A DNA stretch of 64,000 nucleotides from Selenomonas sp. F0473. GTDB lineage: Bacteria; Bacillota; Negativicutes; Selenomonadales; Selenomonadaceae. Shown here in pieces: positions 32,119 through 59,791 of this stretch. The notes beneath the pieces are model-generated. The model was not told where the DNA came from, ran no database searches, and saw only the letters and a list, made by a program, of their open reading frames with translations. Position 1 is the stretch's first letter, and the number at the start of each line of letters is the position of its first letter. A program made the translations under genes and the position numbers. Where the stretch lies: positions 1,322,470-1,386,469 of the forward strand of contig NZ_JH992902.1 of NCBI RefSeq assembly GCF_000315545.1, in the 5' to 3' direction.

Positions 32119-32283
32119 GTGTCCGTCCTTTCTGCGGGAGCGCGTCCCGTTTTCTATGGTTGCTTGTATAAAATAAATATAGTAGTCGTAGTAGTAGGGG
32201 CTGTTGATTTGTTGAAATGCGGAGAGAAGTCCCGCAGCGCCGCGCGGCGGATTGTTGAAAAACTGTGGAGAACTGCGTCTGTG

Positions 32284-32377
32284 TTGTCCACAGTTTGCAC
32301 AGATCGGCGCCGTATGCGGAGTCGTCCACAAAACATCCACAGGATATGCCGCGGCGCATCCACAAATATATTCACAG
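32284..32377 (+). other. DnaA-box cluster between dnaN and dnaA
   Basis: TTGTCCACA (32284-32292), TCGTCCACA (32322-32330), ACATCCACA (32333-32341), GCATCCACA (32356-32364) and TATTCACAG (32369-32377), all in one orientation, each differ by one or a few bases from TTATCCACA. The 32119-32460 gap holds no gene. It could be one half of a bipartite oriC or serve dnaN regulation. Confidence 0.65.
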
Positions 32378-33943: not shown

Positions 33944-34165
33944 TTATCAACAGCGTTATTCACAGTTGTGGATAAATCCGACCAACCGAATGACAAGAAA
34001 ATGCAAGCGTGTGAAAAATTATGCACGATTTTTTCACAGGTTTTCAACAACGGGGCGGGGATATCTCGGCAAAATCCGACGGACTTATGAACGGGTCGAT
34101 CCGCCCCTGCGACAAAGATCACGAATTGGAAATTATTTTAACAAAAAAAGCGATACTTATCAACA
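33944..34165 (-). other. Upstream region of dnaA with DnaA boxes (oriC candidate)
   Basis: The gene-free interval 33916-34217 contains TTATCAACA (33944-33952), TTATTCACA (33956-33964), the perfect complement TGTGGATAA (33967-33975), TTTTTCACA (34030-34038) and TTATCAACA (34157-34165), within AT-rich sequence including A7. Position between divergent dnaA and rpmH is the classical Firmicute oriC location. Confidence 0.7.
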
Positions 34166-36242: not shown

Positions 36243-37277
36243 ATGGCAGAGATCATCGAGACCACAGGGAAAACCGTAGAGGACGCGCTTTCGACAGCGC
36301 TTGATAAACTCGGCTGCGGCCGCGAAGAGATCACCTATGAAGTCCTGCAGGAGCCGTCGAACGGATTCCTCGGGCTTTGGGGCAAACGCGCGGCGCATAT
36401 CCGCGTCACCACGCGCCCCGTCATCCCGGCGCAGCGTACGGAGACGAATGTCCCCGCCCCGACCGTGACGTCTCCGCAGGCCGCACCCGCGGATGAATTT
36501 CCGCAGCGGACAAAGCGGTTCCATACCGACCTCAGGAGCAGCGCGCGTGCGCGCGCAAATCATGCGGAGCACGCCGCGCCGGCATCGCGTGCGGAGCGCC
36601 CGGAACGCGGCGGGCGCGGCGACCGCCGGGAAAGGGGGGCGGAGGCGGAGGACCGATCCGCACGCCGCTATGACAGAGAGCGTTCGTCCTATGACCGCGC
36701 GCACGCGGGCGCCGGCGAAGAGCAGCCGCGCCGCGCCGACCAGCTCCCGCTCGTGCCGCCCTCGCCCGAGATGCTCGCGCGCGCGGAGGGCTTCCTGCGC
36801 GACATATTCGGCGCGATGGCGCTGTCCGTCACGCTCAGCCGCAGCGACAGCCCGATCGGCGTCACCTACAACATGCAGGGCGAGAACCTTGGCATCCTCA
36901 TCGGCAAGCATGGACAGACCCTCGACGCGCTCCAGTATCTCGCCAATCTCGTTGTCAACAGGAACCGCGAGACCGCCGGTTACACCCGCATCATCCTCGA
37001 TGTCGAGGACTACCGCACGCGGCGCGAGGAGACCCTCACGCGCCTTGCGGGGCACCTCGCGGACAAGGCGTGCCGCATCGGCGAGGAGATCCGCCTCGAG
37101 CCCATGAGCCGCCACGAGCGCAAGATCATCCATATGGCGCTCCAGGACAACCGCCGCGTCACCACTTACAGCGCCGGCGAGAACCCGCGCCGCTACGTCG
37201 TCATCGTGCCGAAGCGCCGCCGCTATAACCGCGGCGGGTATGCGGAGAATACCTTCGAGGACGGGTACGAGAGATAA
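36243..37277 (+). CDS. khpB: RNA-binding protein Jag/KhpB
   Basis: 344 residues: N-terminal Jag-N domain (EIIETTGKTVEDALSTALDKL), a long charged, Arg/Ala-rich disordered linker (about residues 85-170), a KH domain (MQGENLGILIGKHGQTLDALQYL) and an R3H domain (MSRHERKIIHMALQ). With KhpA it binds RNAs affecting cell division and envelope genes. It is the last gene of the rpmH cluster here; a terminator follows instead of mnmE. Confidence 0.92.
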   Translation: MAEIIETTGKTVEDALSTALDKLGCGREEITYEVLQEPSNGFLGLWGKRAAHIRVTTRPVIPAQRTETNVPAPTVTSPQAAPADEFPQRTKRFHTDLRSSARARANHAEHAAPASRAERPERGGRGDRRERGAEAEDRSARRYDRERSSYDRAHAGAGEEQPRRADQLPLVPPSPEMLARAEGFLRDIFGAMALSVTLSRSDSPIGVTYNMQGENLGILIGKHGQTLDALQYLANLVVNRNRETAGYTRIILDVEDYRTRREETLTRLAGHLADKACRIGEEIRLEPMSRHERKIIHMALQDNRRVTTYSAGENPRRYVVIVPKRRRYNRGGYAENTFEDGYER

Positions 37278-46641: not shown

Positions 46642-47982
46642 CTACTGCTGTTTTCCTGCATTTGCGGCGCCGCGCGTGGGGGCGCCGCCGGCGGATGAGC
46701 GCGTGTCGTCGCCGCCCGCGAAGGAACCGCCGCCCGCGCGGGTGCTGGCGTGACGGCCGGTGTCCGGGGATTTGGCCGACGAGCCGCTGCGGCCCTGCGG
46801 CGCTGCGGATCCATCGCCGCGCGTGCTCCGGGTGCCGGAGGCGTCGCTGCCGGTGCGCTGCTTGCCGGATTTCCCGGAGGGGCTCTTCGCGTCCGCGTCG
46901 TCCGTGTCCTTTGCGCGGTCGGATTTGCCCAGCGCCTCATCCGCGCTGACGGCGCGCCCGACGGAGGTGTCTCCTGCCGGGAGTTCGGTCGCGTTTGCGG
47001 GGATGGAGTCCTCGTATTCGCGGATCGCGCGCTCCATGCGGCTGCGCTCGGCGGGGCTGAGCGTGACGCCGAGGGTGCTCGCCATCGAGCGGCGGAGCTC
47101 CGACATGTTCGGGATCCAGTAGCTGACCTCGTCGATGTAGAGCGGCCGTCCGGGCACCATATCGGTGCGCAGACCCTTCGCCTGCGACTCGCGCAGGGTG
47201 CCGATGAACTCGAGCATCTGTCGGAGCGAGAGATCGGTCTTCACGCTGTCGATGACGCTGCTGATGATGCTCGGCAGGCGCGGGATGATGGCGGGGGTCG
47301 TGACCGCGTCGACGCATGCCTTCATGAATTTTTGCTGGCGGCGGACACGGCCGATGTCGCCCTCCTCGTCGCGGTAGCGCACGTAGGTGACGGCGGTCTT
47401 GCCGTCCATGTGCTGCATCCCGGGGCGCAGATCGATGACGAGACCCCCGTCGTCGTCCCACGGGTCCTCGTAGTACATGCGCTTTTCGACGTTGATATCG
47501 ATGCCGCCGATGGCGTCGACGATCTTTTGGAAGGCGTGCGTGTTGATGATGACGTAGTGGTCGATGCGGATGCCAAGGAAATCCTCGACGGTGCGCTGGG
47601 TGAGTTTCTCGCCGCCGTAGGCGTATGCGGCGTTGATTTTGTCGTAGCCGTTCCTAGGAATAGCGACGCGCGTGTCGCGCGGGATGGAGAGCAGCGCGGC
47701 CTCCTTTTTCCCCGGGTCGATGGTCGCGACCATGAGGGTGTCGCTGCGGCCGACGTCGTCCGCGCGCTCGTCGACGCCCATGATCATGATGGTCGCCTTG
47801 TCCTTGGCGGTGAGAAGCTCTTCTTTTTGCACGTCCTGCCGCCTGTCCAGCAGGCTGCTCTCGGCGAAGAATACGCCCGCGATCGCCGCGAGGACGAAGA
47901 CGAATATGGTGCCGAGCACGACGAACGGCCATGTTTTCTTTTTCGGTTTGACCGGGCGCCGGGGCGGTGGTAGTTTGCTCAA
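46642..47982 (-). CDS. LytR-CpsA-Psr (LCP) family cell-wall ligase
   Basis: 446 residues. A short cytoplasmic Pro/Lys-rich N-terminus, one membrane helix (WPFVVLGTIFVFVLAAIAG), then the LCP domain: GVDERADDVGRSDTLMVATID, LLSIPRDTRVAIP and the YVRYRDEEGDIGRVRRQQ signature with its conserved arginines. LCP enzymes transfer lipid-linked polymers to peptidoglycan or other acceptors. The last 100 residues are a Ser/Gly/Ala/Arg-rich disordered tail. TTG 47982 follows AGGAGAG; no ATG alternative fits. The leader upstream is long (about 180 bases). Confidence 0.88.
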   Translation of the reverse strand: MSKLPPPRRPVKPKKKTWPFVVLGTIFVFVLAAIAGVFFAESSLLDRRQDVQKEELLTAKDKATIMIMGVDERADDVGRSDTLMVATIDPGKKEAALLSIPRDTRVAIPRNGYDKINAAYAYGGEKLTQRTVEDFLGIRIDHYVIINTHAFQKIVDAIGGIDINVEKRMYYEDPWDDDGGLVIDLRPGMQHMDGKTAVTYVRYRDEEGDIGRVRRQQKFMKACVDAVTTPAIIPRLPSIISSVIDSVKTDLSLRQMLEFIGTLRESQAKGLRTDMVPGRPLYIDEVSYWIPNMSELRRSMASTLGVTLSPAERSRMERAIREYEDSIPANATELPAGDTSVGRAVSADEALGKSDRAKDTDDADAKSPSGKSGKQRTGSDASGTRSTRGDGSAAPQGRSGSSAKSPDTGRHASTRAGGGSFAGGDDTRSSAGGAPTRGAANAGKQQ

Positions 47983-48168
47983 ATGACTCTCCTATCTGAT
48001 GCGAGGCGAGATCCTTGTGCCTGGCTTCGCCGCATCGCGCATGCCGCGGGATGACGCGGCGAGATGCCCGTCTTCGTCACAAAGCCCGATGATTCGCCGG
48101 ATTGCTGCTTGTCTGAGATCCCTACACCTCGATGAATTGCCTTGCGTTCGCTCATATCCTAGATTATA
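47983..48168 (-). other. Long leader of the LCP gene, with -10 element
   Basis: A minus-strand TATAAT at 48163-48168 lies about 180 bases before the LCP start without a convincing -35. The leader has GC-rich self-complementary patches (for example CTTGTG near the gene and CACAAAG farther upstream) and no open frame of note. I see no recognised riboswitch. Confidence 0.3.
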
Positions 48169-48276
48169 CTGGATGACAAAAGAACGCGGGATTCATTCAG
48201 TATCAAATAATATATAGCAAACGCCGCCAATATGCAACCTATTTAATCATGTATTCATAGAAGGGACGCGGTTCTC

Positions 48277-48765
48277 ATGGGCGTTGAAATCGAACGAAAA
48301 TTTCGGGTGCGGGAGGATTTTCAGCCGCGGGGGACGGGCACGCGCATCGTCCAGGGCTACCTCTCCCGCGATCCCGCACGGACGGTGCGCGTGCGCGTCG
48401 CGGGAGACCGCGCGTACCTGACGGTGAAGGGGGAGACGCACGGCGCGCGCCGTTCTGAGTTCGAGTATGAGATCCCCGCGGCAGACGCGCGGGCGATGCT
48501 CGCGCTGTGCGCGCCGCCACTCGTCGAGAAGACGCGCCGCCGCGTGCCGTATGCGGGGCATACGTGGGAGGTCGACGTCTTCCACGGGGCGAACGAGGGG
48601 CTCCGCGTTGCCGAGGTGGAGCTCCGCGACGAGGCGGAGGATGTGACGCTGCCGCCGTGGGTGACGGTCGAGGTGACGGGGGAAAAACGATACTACAATG
48701 CGTCTCTCATCGCGTATCCCTTTGCCCTGTGGACAGCGGCGGAAAGGGATGTTCATCCACTGTGA
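48277..48765 (+). CDS. CYTH-domain triphosphate-processing enzyme
   Basis: 162 residues. Begins with the diagnostic EIERKF motif (GVEIERKFRV), followed by VQGYLSRDPARTVRVRVAGD, YLTVKGE and the acidic VAEVELRDE of the tunnel. CYTH proteins bind triphosphates with Mg; bacterial examples include tripolyphosphatase and thiamine triphosphatase. The ATG follows AGAAGGGA. Directly downstream begins the DnaA-box cluster. Confidence 0.88.
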   Translation: MGVEIERKFRVREDFQPRGTGTRIVQGYLSRDPARTVRVRVAGDRAYLTVKGETHGARRSEFEYEIPAADARAMLALCAPPLVEKTRRRVPYAGHTWEVDVFHGANEGLRVAEVELRDEAEDVTLPPWVTVEVTGEKRYYNASLIAYPFALWTAAERDVHPL

Positions 48766-48767
48766 TC

Positions 48768-48981
48768 TGTGGATAAGTATACATGGGCGGTCTACAAAAT
48801 ATGGAATTCAGATATTTTCCAGATTCAATATATGGTGTTATCCACTACCTTATCCACGTTATCAACAGAAATCGGAAAACCGTTCGGAAATTTTTTCCAC
48901 ACTGTGTAAAGATATGTGGATAAAGGAAATTTCGGGCTTTTGCACAAATCTATCCACAAGGTTTTACACAACTGGGGATAA
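48768..48981 (+). other. Dense DnaA-box cluster (candidate origin or DnaA-titration site)
   Basis: Nine DnaA-box-like 9-mers in 214 bases: TGTGGATAA (48768 and 48915, both perfect), TTATCCACT (48838), TTATCCACG (48850), TTATCAACA (48859), TTTTCCACA (48893), CTATCCACA (48950), TTTTACACA (48962) and TGGGGATAA (48973). The interval 48766-49037 is AT-rich, has no gene, and ends in an AT stretch (TTTTATAATTTATTC at 48999-49013) that could unwind. It is denser than the clusters next to dnaA. Confidence 0.75.
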
Positions 48982-49037
48982 CTTGTGATGAAGTGTTGAT
49001 TTTATAATTTATTCTGTTATGAAAGGGATTTTTACAG

Positions 49038-49715
49038 ATGCAAGAATGGGAAATCTGTCTGCGGCTCGTGCTCTCCTGCGTGATGGGCGGGATCATCGGC
49101 TACGAGCGGCAGATGCGGCATAAATCGGCGGGGCTCAGGACGAACATGCTCGTCTCGCTCGGCTCCTGCCTCATCATGATCCTATCGCAGGCGCTCTACG
49201 ACAACGTGGAGGGCAAGACAAACGCCGACCCCGCGCGGCTCGCGGCGCAGGTCGTCAGCGGCATCGGCTTCCTCGGCGCGGGCGCGATTATGAAGGAGGG
49301 TCTGACGGTCACGGGGCTCACGACGGCGGCGTGCCTTTGGGTCGTCGCGGGCGTCGGCCTCGCGGTCGGCGCGGGGTTTTACTTCGGCGCGGCGGTGACG
49401 ACGCTCATCGTGTTCCTCATCCTCGGCAACCTTTCGCGCCTCGACGCGTGGGTCGATCAGGACCAGCTCCTCTCGCTCTCCGTGCACACGGTCGACCGCC
49501 CGGGGCAGATCATGCGCATCAGCGCGTGCATCGAGGATCTGCACCTGCGTTCGCGCGGCGTGAAGGTAAAGACGGACGAGGACGAGGCGGAGACGCCCGG
49601 GGAGCGGCGCATCTACGTTAGTTTCGAGGTCTACAATACGGAGAATCTGAAACCCGTCTTTATCGTGGACGCGCTGCGGCAGGTGGACGGCGTGCTCCGC
49701 GTGGATGTGGTTTGA
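49038..49715 (+). CDS. MgtC/SapB-family membrane protein
   Basis: 225 residues. About four membrane helices with the family signature GGIIGYERQMRHKSAGLRTNMLVSLG and ISGIGFLGAGAIM (here VVSGIGFLGAGAIMKEG), then a cytoplasmic ACT-like C-terminal domain. MgtC homologues are linked to Mg homeostasis and, in pathogens, inhibition of ATP synthase. GAAAGGGA precedes the ATG. Confidence 0.9.
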   Translation: MQEWEICLRLVLSCVMGGIIGYERQMRHKSAGLRTNMLVSLGSCLIMILSQALYDNVEGKTNADPARLAAQVVSGIGFLGAGAIMKEGLTVTGLTTAACLWVVAGVGLAVGAGFYFGAAVTTLIVFLILGNLSRLDAWVDQDQLLSLSVHTVDRPGQIMRISACIEDLHLRSRGVKVKTDEDEAETPGERRIYVSFEVYNTENLKPVFIVDALRQVDGVLRVDVV

Positions 49716-49739
49716 CTTACGGATGAAAGAGGCGGCAAA

Positions 49740-50216
49740 ATGATTATCACATGGGACGAGTATTTTATGGGCATCGCGATCTTCTCCGCATATCGGAGCA
49801 AGGATCCGCACACGCAGGTCGGCGCGTGCATCGTGAACGAGGATAAGCACATCGTCGGCGTCGGCTATAACGGCATGCCGAACGGATGTGACGACAGCGA
49901 GTACCCGTGGGGGCGGACGGGCGAGTTCGCGGATCAGAAATATCCCTACGTCGTGCACGCGGAGCTGAACGCGATCCTCAACGCGAGCACCTCGCTCAAG
50001 GGCTGCCGCATCTACGTCTCGCTCTTTCCGTGCAACGAATGCTGCAAGGCGATCATCCAGAGCGGCATCCGCGAGGTCGTCTACCTCTCGGATAAATACG
50101 CCGCCACCGACAGTACGAAGGCGTCGAAACGGATGCTCGCCTCCGCGGGCGTTGTGTGCAGGCGCATGGAGACCGACCTCACCGAGGTGCCCGTGTCGTT
50201 TGCGGTGGAGGAGTAG
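49740..50216 (+). CDS. comEB: Deoxycytidylate (dCMP) deaminase
   Basis: 158 residues. Zinc site HAELNAILN and PCNECCKAII; the N-terminal TWDEYFMGIAIFSAYRSKDPHTQVGACIV is typical of the ComEB/dCMP deaminase family. It converts dCMP to dUMP for thymidylate synthesis. It follows mgtC by 24 bases with AGAGGCGG as site, so probably the same mRNA. Confidence 0.92.
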   Translation: MIITWDEYFMGIAIFSAYRSKDPHTQVGACIVNEDKHIVGVGYNGMPNGCDDSEYPWGRTGEFADQKYPYVVHAELNAILNASTSLKGCRIYVSLFPCNECCKAIIQSGIREVVYLSDKYAATDSTKASKRMLASAGVVCRRMETDLTEVPVSFAVEE

Positions 50217-58405: not shown

Positions 58406-59791
58406 ATGCGAGGAGAGCGCGACACGATCAGTCAGATCGCAACGCCGCCGGGGGCGGGCGGCATCGGTATCGTCCGCGTGAGCGGGGCGGATGCGCTCGA
58501 TATTGCCCGCGCAGTCTTCCGCCCGGCGCGTGGGGGGCGGCTCGAAGAGATGGCGCCCTATACGGCGCGCTATGGTCATATCGTCGCAGGGGACGGCGCG
58601 GTGATCGACGAGTGCGTCCTGCTCTGTATGCGCGCGCCGCATTCCTATACGGGCGAGGATACGGCGGAGCTGCAGTGCCACGGCGGCACGGCTGTTCTGC
58701 GCGAGGTGCTCCTGCGGACATGGGAGGCGGGGGCGCGTCCCGCCGAGGCGGGCGAATTCACAAAGCGCGCCTTTCTGAACGGGCGGCTCGATCTCGCGCG
58801 TGCGGAGGGCGTGATGGAGCTGATCGCTGCAAAGAGTGCGCGGGCGGCGCGTGCCGCGCGGGAACGAGCGGCGGGCGCGCTCTCATCGCAAATCAAGGGG
58901 ATCCGGGCGCGCCTGCTCGGAGCAGTCGCGCATATCGAGGCGGGGATCGACTTCCCCGAGGACGATATTCCGGAGGCGCGGACGGCGGCGCTCGCGGCGG
59001 ATATCGCCGCGGCGTCCGAGGATGTCGCGCGGCTCCTCGCGGGTGCGGAGGCGGGGCGCATCCTGCGCGAGGGGCTCAAGACTGTGATCGTCGGGCGGCC
59101 GAACGTCGGCAAGTCGAGTCTCCTCAACGCCCTGCTCGGCATGGAGCGCGCCATCGTGACGGATGTGCCGGGGACGACACGCGATGTGATCGAGGAGCAG
59201 ATACTTGTCGACGGGATTCCCCTGCGCCTGCTCGATACGGCGGGGCTGCGCGCGGCGGAGGATGCCGTCGAGCGGATCGGGGTTGCACGGACGGAGGAGC
59301 AGATCGCCGATGCGGAGCTGATCCTCGCCGTCTTTGACGGCACGGCGCCGCTGACAGCGGAGGACTGTGCGCTGATGGAGCGTCTGCGGGATGCGGCGGC
59401 GGATATCATCGTCCTCTGCAACAAGGAGGATCGTACGCCCGTCCTCGCCGCGGCAGACTTTGCAGCGCTCAATGCACCGGTGCTCTTTATCTCGGCGCGG
59501 GCGGGGACGGGGCTGGACGCGCTGCGCCGTGCGATTACGGATATCGCCCTGCGCATGGAGGGAGACCTCGGCGACGGCGCGCTCCCGAACAAGGAGCGCG
59601 AGACGGAGGCGCTCGGGCGCGCGGCGGCGCATCTTCGGGCGGCGGAGGAGACGCTGGCGGCGGACATGGGCACGGATTTTGTGTCCATCGATCTGCGCGC
59701 CGCCTATGAGATCCTCGGCGAGATCCTCGGCGAAACCGTAGACGCCGACCTCATCGACAGGATCTTCAGCGAGTTCTGCATCGGGAAGTAG
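58406..59791 (+). CDS. mnmE: tRNA modification GTPase MnmE
   Basis: 461 residues. With MnmG it modifies the wobble uridine of several tRNAs. Formyl-THF-binding N-terminal domain (ISQIATPPGAGGIGIVRVSG), the inserted GTPase domain with G1 GRPNVGKSSLLN, G2/G3 region TTRDVIEEQ and DTAGLR, G4 NKED, and the invariant C-terminal FCIGK whose Cys is essential. The start ATG follows AAGGGGATAGG. Confidence 0.95.
   Translation: MRGERDTISQIATPPGAGGIGIVRVSGADALDIARAVFRPARGGRLEEMAPYTARYGHIVAGDGAVIDECVLLCMRAPHSYTGEDTAELQCHGGTAVLREVLLRTWEAGARPAEAGEFTKRAFLNGRLDLARAEGVMELIAAKSARAARAARERAAGALSSQIKGIRARLLGAVAHIEAGIDFPEDDIPEARTAALAADIAAASEDVARLLAGAEAGRILREGLKTVIVGRPNVGKSSLLNALLGMERAIVTDVPGTTRDVIEEQILVDGIPLRLLDTAGLRAAEDAVERIGVARTEEQIADAELILAVFDGTAPLTAEDCALMERLRDAAADIIVLCNKEDRTPVLAAADFAALNAPVLFISARAGTGLDALRRAITDIALRMEGDLGDGALPNKERETEALGRAAAHLRAAEETLAADMGTDFVSIDLRAAYEILGEILGETVDADLIDRIFSEFCIGK

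Follow-up and report, generated by a model that had tools for sequence, protein, structure and literature searches.

A conserved array of DnaA boxes outside the dnaA region is a candidate DnaA-binding control locus in Selenomonas and its family

Results

A dense array of DnaA boxes lies between a CYTH-domain gene and mgtC

We analysed a 64-kb window comprising bases 1,322,470-1,386,469 of the one-contig, 2,065,801-bp genome of Selenomonas sp. F0473, in which a non-coding region (48766-49037, 65% A+T) separates a gene for a CYTH-domain protein (48277-48765, plus strand) from an mgtC-family gene with an ACT-like domain (49038-49715, plus strand). Each of these two genes is missing from some of the loci considered below; a LytR-CpsA-Psr family gene (46642-47982, minus strand) is a neighbour in many of them. 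Within the non-coding region, positions 48768-48981 hold eight DnaA boxes with at most one mismatch to TTATCCACA, a span of exactly 214 bases that agrees with a preliminary description of this DNA, as does the AT-rich, non-coding setting. That description counted nine box-like sites: the cluster itself stands, and the count depends on the tolerance, being eight at one mismatch or fewer and 11 at two or fewer over 48766-49037.

From left to right the array, which we refer to as the element, begins with a perfect box (TTATCCACA, 48768-48776, minus strand), followed by two AT-rich motifs that are conserved in our alignments, TACAAAATATGG (48793-48804, plus strand) and CAATATATGG (48826-48835, plus strand), the latter directly before three tandem plus-strand boxes (48838-48867) that start at 48838, 48850 and 48859 (TTATCCACT, TTATCCACG and TTATCAACA) and keep offsets of 0/12/21 in the aligned family sequences. 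Next come a CGTTCG between boxes (48881-48886, plus strand), invariant in 14 of 14 genus genomes; a plus-strand box at 48893-48901 (TTTTCCACA, or TTATGCACA in most genus relatives); a second perfect TTATCCACA box (48915-48923, minus strand), so that both perfect copies lie on the minus strand, as had been stated; and a paired module (48950-48981) in which a plus-strand box at 48950 (CTATCCACA) faces a minus-strand box at 48973 (TTATCCCCA) at an offset of 23. The AT-rich stretch before mgtC (48987-49036), likewise remarked on earlier, is among the least stable 50-bp stretches of the window (0.17% of windows are lower), its minimum of 56.1 at 48987 falling slightly below those of the two dnaA gaps (57.6 and 58.2). 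The element thus has the AT-rich, low-stability DNA adjoining boxes that is expected of a Firmicute-type oriC.

In 1000 dinucleotide shuffles of the element region, the number of boxes averaged 0.155 and never exceeded two, which rules out chance as the origin of the cluster; boxes clustered beyond chance, here eight in 214 bp, are also what characterizes a locus of the kind known as DnaA-box clusters (DBCs). The whole window holds 21 boxes against 4.9 expected. Across the 466,531 bases of the chromosome that were scanned (the window plus 21 stretches), the element is the densest site in 214-bp windows, and the runners-up outside it carry three boxes each, at dnaA and at 1,037,658. Two other identities were considered and set aside: 48000-49800 yielded no Rfam match above cut-off, and the window contains no parS site within three mismatches of the consensus.

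The runner-up remote from dnaA (L023:7659-7793, chromosome 1,037,658-1,037,792) consists of three perfect DnaA boxes, flanked by an MscS-type channel gene and by a short open reading frame that matches the end of the anaerobic ribonucleotide reductase NrdD. A plus/minus/minus triple is present in G001 as well, with spacing 37/90 compared to 36/90 here, and perhaps reflects control of nucleotide synthesis by DnaA.

Genes around the element had been described as running leftward on its left and rightward on its right. By our own gene-calling script, all ten genes called between 37.5 and 48.0 kb do run left, but so do four called genes on the right side, at 51.6-54.8 kb, and genes diverge at dnaA/rnpA as well. 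The usual gene order in Firmicutes places mnmE after jag, as in G051; in the window, about 21 kb of other genes together with the element (37278-58405) part jag, which ends at 37277, from mnmE, which starts at 58406.

Spacing and inter-box sequence are conserved across many genera

All 14 genomes of the genus have an mgtC orthologue, and upstream of it all 14 have the array, at nearly fixed spacing. Across the genus, 49 of 63 core columns within boxes are invariant, as are 44 of the 96 between boxes, CGTTCG among the latter, compared to 20 of 139 third codon positions of mgtC (counted over the first 140 codons, unaligned); mean pairwise identity is 0.84 for the core and 0.66 for mgtC third codon positions. 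The greater invariance of inter-box columns than of mgtC third positions indicates selection on more than the boxes alone.

With a profile made from the sequence of the genus element, 102 of the 121 genomes of the family gave a match at E<=0.01. A further profile drew on 19 sequences from the family; in the order sample, where the window's own family is the only one represented, it hit 118 of 189 genomes and 28 of 30 genera at E<=0.001. Since the weaker hits could represent incomplete elements or clusters linked to dnaA, we regard the 64 genomes in 13 genera that score at least 60 bits (of the same 189 and 30) as the safer number; matches in 15 further genera were weaker and often partial, and in genera g8 and g12 no genome of the sample gave a profile match. 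The core common to the family comprises two AT-rich ATATGG-like motifs, three tandem boxes, a variable middle, and a plus-strand box followed by minus-strand boxes. Class-wide, 170 of 300 genomes matched at E<=1e-4, with a best score outside the order of about 40 bits among the matches listed; such low-scoring matches may be general DnaA-box clusters, those at dnaA included, and we therefore confine the claim to the order. Judged by comparative sequence, many genera of the family keep a DnaA-box locus outside the dnaA region, with both the spacing of its boxes and the sequence between them.

Genus g12 (G024, G051 and others; L326) also stands out in its replication genes. A DnaA C-terminal domain was detected in 11 of its 66 genomes and in one of the 14 of good quality, and dnaN in all 12 genomes examined; in G051, relatives of rnpA, recF, dnaN and gyrB form a cluster that contains no dnaA, the window genes being named by Pfam for this comparison. 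It is possible that dnaA has been lost in this genus, whose genomes span about 2-3 Mb, and assembly gaps may also explain the pattern. A genus without the element and mostly without DnaA would fit a DnaA-dependent role, with the qualification that the 11 g12 genomes with DnaA are also without the element and that many g12 assemblies are fragmented and incomplete.

The element is kept independently of its neighbouring genes

In the present genome the element lies directly upstream of mgtC, and DnaA is a transcription factor at certain sites, according to the abstract of PMC4447404; DnaA might thus control a promoter here, that of mgtC or of another neighbour. However, 13 of the 55 strong-element genomes included in the mgtC search retain the element without an mgtC match (four of these 13 derive from the tally rather than from individually seen misses), and an mgtC promoter was rejected as the cause of conservation on this ground. 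Within about 1.5 kb of the element, L120, L123, L127 and L130 have the LytR and CYTH genes without mgtC; L119, L128, L129 and L131 have LytR and mgtC without CYTH; and L125 has LytR only, so that CYTH was not found beside the element in five of these loci. In G064 (L300), LytR, CYTH and mgtC are all absent from the 5 kb taken around the element.

In a scan for MgtC, from which the window's own genome or very near ones may be left out, the closest named records were Selenomonas sp. FOBRC6 and Centipeda periodontii DSM 2778, so that the present genome probably belongs with oral Selenomonas/Centipeda. The 700 bp upstream of 80 named MgtC loci hold seven to 11 boxes in nine cases (L201-L205, L215-L218), four in L222 and two at most in the other 70, with the upstream DNA of L214 and L246 too short for a box count. 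In G031 the profile match is far from mgtC, whose upstream region there is without boxes, and in two 6-kb stretches from g12 genomes (L335, L336) CYTH and mgtC are adjacent with zero boxes. Since the element is kept without mgtC, without CYTH and without all three genes, the constant is the element and not a gene set; we consider a promoter role unlikely.

The origin probably lies at dnaA and the element outside it

Close to DnaA boxes, the dnaA strand of the dnaA-dnaN gap reads CCTACTACTACGACTACTATATTTATTT, a DnaA-trio array (32171-32206, plus strand) that is probably the unwinding site of the true oriC. It is the sole such array in the 64-kb window, defined as at least four in-phase TAG in 24 bp; the element reaches at most one in-phase TAG in 24 bp. 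Trios were found at dnaA in 14 of 14 genus loci and 15 of 16 other family loci, and were absent from 17 of 17 elements scanned. This arrangement is known from B. subtilis and C. difficile (excerpts of PMC7561715 and PMC13220808). The gap also contains the boxes TTCTCCACA (minus strand) and TTGTCCACA (plus strand) at 32264-32292, and the region upstream of dnaA contains boxes at +33944, +33956 and -33967 (33944-33975), from which we infer that the origin is a bipartite region flanking dnaA on both sides. Though its trio array is present, the gap of the present genome (32119-32463) holds no perfect DnaA box; of the 13 other genus members, 12 carry two or more and G001 a single one.

We modelled GC skew in seven genomes as a step, taking gene strand as a covariate and omitting twelve 1-kb bins that read mostly N. 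The log-likelihood for dnaA minus that for the element was 4.8 in G000, 16.5 in G002, 6.2 in G008, 15.8 in G011 and 33.8 in G063, was 0.6 and thus undecided in G006, and was -9.4 in G013, where the element is preferred. The support interval in G000 (1,328,970-1,366,970) includes dnaA and excludes the element. The fit is rough: in most of the seven genomes the model does better with a switch point other than dnaA, the best one lying 3.5-7.4 kb from dnaA in G002, G006, G008 and G011 and 27, 41 and 93 kb from it in G000, G063 and G013, and rearrangements may account for part of this misfit. In G013 the best switch (C1:525500-533500) lies beyond the element as seen from dnaA, at 36 kb from the former and 93 kb from the latter, perhaps owing to a recent inversion or a shifted origin. 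Plotted at 10-kb steps, the skew of the present genome forms a broad plateau, which alone is too coarse to separate sites 15 kb apart.

These results bear on the suggestion, made in the preliminary description, that the real oriC has moved away from dnaA; on that reading the element would be the origin, with a remnant kept at dnaA. The element is denser in boxes than the dnaA clusters here and adjoins low-stability DNA, the dnaA-dnaN boxes here lack the perfect copy that each of 13 genus relatives has at least once, and the skew of G013 prefers the element; against this, the trio array is at 32.2 kb with none in the element, and the skew switch prefers dnaA in five of seven genomes. Skew is a long-term average, so a recent change of origin would still be compatible with it, yet we consider a moved origin very improbable. 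A skew minimum at dnaA combined with a lack of conservation at the element had been named beforehand among the signs that would speak against the preliminary description; we find half of this, skew towards dnaA but a strongly conserved element. Taken together, the missing trios and the skew preference suggest that the element probably lies outside the origin.

Distance from dnaA varies, as do side and orientation

In the present genome the element is 14.7 kb from dnaA. Among the 121 genomes searched for dnaA, all 31 strong-element genomes (>=60 bits) with both features on one contig gave distances of 3.1-60.5 kb, with a median of 30 kb (G012 being measured round the contig end, taken as circular); same-contig pairs in fragmented assemblies bias this set towards short distances, and it leaves out genomes whose element and dnaA fall on separate contigs (among them G022, and G010, where they are at least 50 kb apart) and weak versions such as those in G063, G042 and G018, which lie 132, 169 and 207 kb from dnaA. 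In G022, assembled in six contigs, dnaA and a strong element (124.9 bits) are on separate contigs and at least 362 kb apart, indicating that closeness to dnaA is neither universal nor strictly needed. All four combinations of side and orientation relative to dnaA occur within the genus (G000, G002, G003, G011).

The 466,531 bases contain the plus/minus pair at offset 23 at two places, one (33944/33967) in the region upstream of dnaA and the other (48950/48973) within the element. This offset recurs in elements of other genera (e.g. L119, L121); the element and the dnaA upstream region may therefore build similar DnaA complexes. The shared module lends some support to the earlier idea of a split origin, in which the element would be a third subregion of oriC and DnaA bound here would loop to the dnaA flanks and promote unwinding at the dnaA-dnaN DUE. 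Consistent with this, the 31 same-contig genomes all have the element less than 61 kb from dnaA, and unwinding in C. difficile needs both dnaA-flanking regions, according to excerpts of PMC7561715. A third subregion would, however, have to act at distances between 3 kb and more than 360 kb, from either side and in either orientation, and two genera give no match, which makes this reading an unlikely one.

Discussion

Of the three suggestions made in the preliminary description, a datA-like titration or control locus fits best, and its interpretation as a whole is supported to that extent. We estimate a probability of roughly 0.6 that the element serves as a DnaA-binding control locus lying outside the origin, in most cases no more than tens of kilobases from it. 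On such a model, DnaA would assemble cooperatively on the ordered array, comprising three tandem boxes, middle boxes and a plus/minus pair like that upstream of dnaA. At an array without trios, DNA opening of the usual kind would not be expected, so that the complex would instead hold or inactivate DnaA. Because the array lies about 15 kb from dnaA, it would be copied soon after oriC fires, and where the element is origin-proximal the doubling of its copy number after initiation would lower free active DnaA and damp re-initiation, a mode of action comparable to that of datA in E. coli and of the DnaA-box clusters in B. subtilis.

Titration, ATP hydrolysis and ADP release (nucleotide exchange) look alike at the level of sequence. 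The last would make the element a DARS-like locus that regenerates ATP-DnaA and acts positively, and a compact set of ordered, opposed boxes with conserved spacing would suit a nucleotide-exchange complex; in most genomes, however, the element is near oriC, where recharging DnaA right after firing would seem counter-productive, and we think this improbable. A broader and still doubtful idea is that in Gram-negative Firmicutes the element has long served as a dedicated nucleoprotein locus that switches DnaA activity in cis, either by changing the nucleotide state of DnaA, as datA and DARS do, or as a distant third part of the origin complex. Since B. subtilis is without datA and DARS according to the excerpted text of PMC13220808, such a switch would be the first in a Firmicute known to us.

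A limited literature search returned no paper on an origin-control locus in Selenomonas, Veillonella or Negativicutes. Comparative sequence here marks a conserved DnaA-box locus in a family of mouth and gut bacteria that probably helps to time the start of chromosome copying, and offers the element as a defined target of 150-200 bp. It also corrects the assumption that the densest cluster of boxes is the origin.

Among known systems, the bipartite origins of B. subtilis and C. difficile share DnaA-box clusters with the element, but the element has no trios and is not next to dnaA. It is the dnaA region of the present genome that has the bipartite arrangement, complete with CTACTACTAC-type trios as at the C. 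difficile oriC (PMC7561715, in excerpt). The boxes of E. coli DARS1 and DARS2 are ordered, as are those of the element. These two loci are also non-coding, DnaA-binding and outside oriC, as excerpted from PMC5295017; the element resembles them in sequence layout and differs in being usually origin-proximal. E. coli datA, in the same excerpts (PMC5295017), is a non-coding cluster of five DnaA boxes outside oriC that spans about 1 kb and depends on IHF for promoting the hydrolysis of DnaA-ATP; the element, compared by anatomical features only, is likewise a non-coding DnaA-box cluster outside oriC, with an array of 214 bp. In B. subtilis, six DnaA-box clusters lie outside oriC, and their joint deletion leads to early initiation (excerpts of PMC5295017 and PMC13220808), which single clusters put back at various places partly corrected (PMC5295017, in excerpt). 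Like these, the element gathers several DnaA boxes outside the origin of a Firmicute; unlike them, it is one locus with fixed multi-box spacing and with inter-box sequence conserved across many genera, tied to no single neighbouring gene. By its anatomy, the element would work most like the DBCs and datA/DARS, and is most likely a regulator of the datA/DBC kind.
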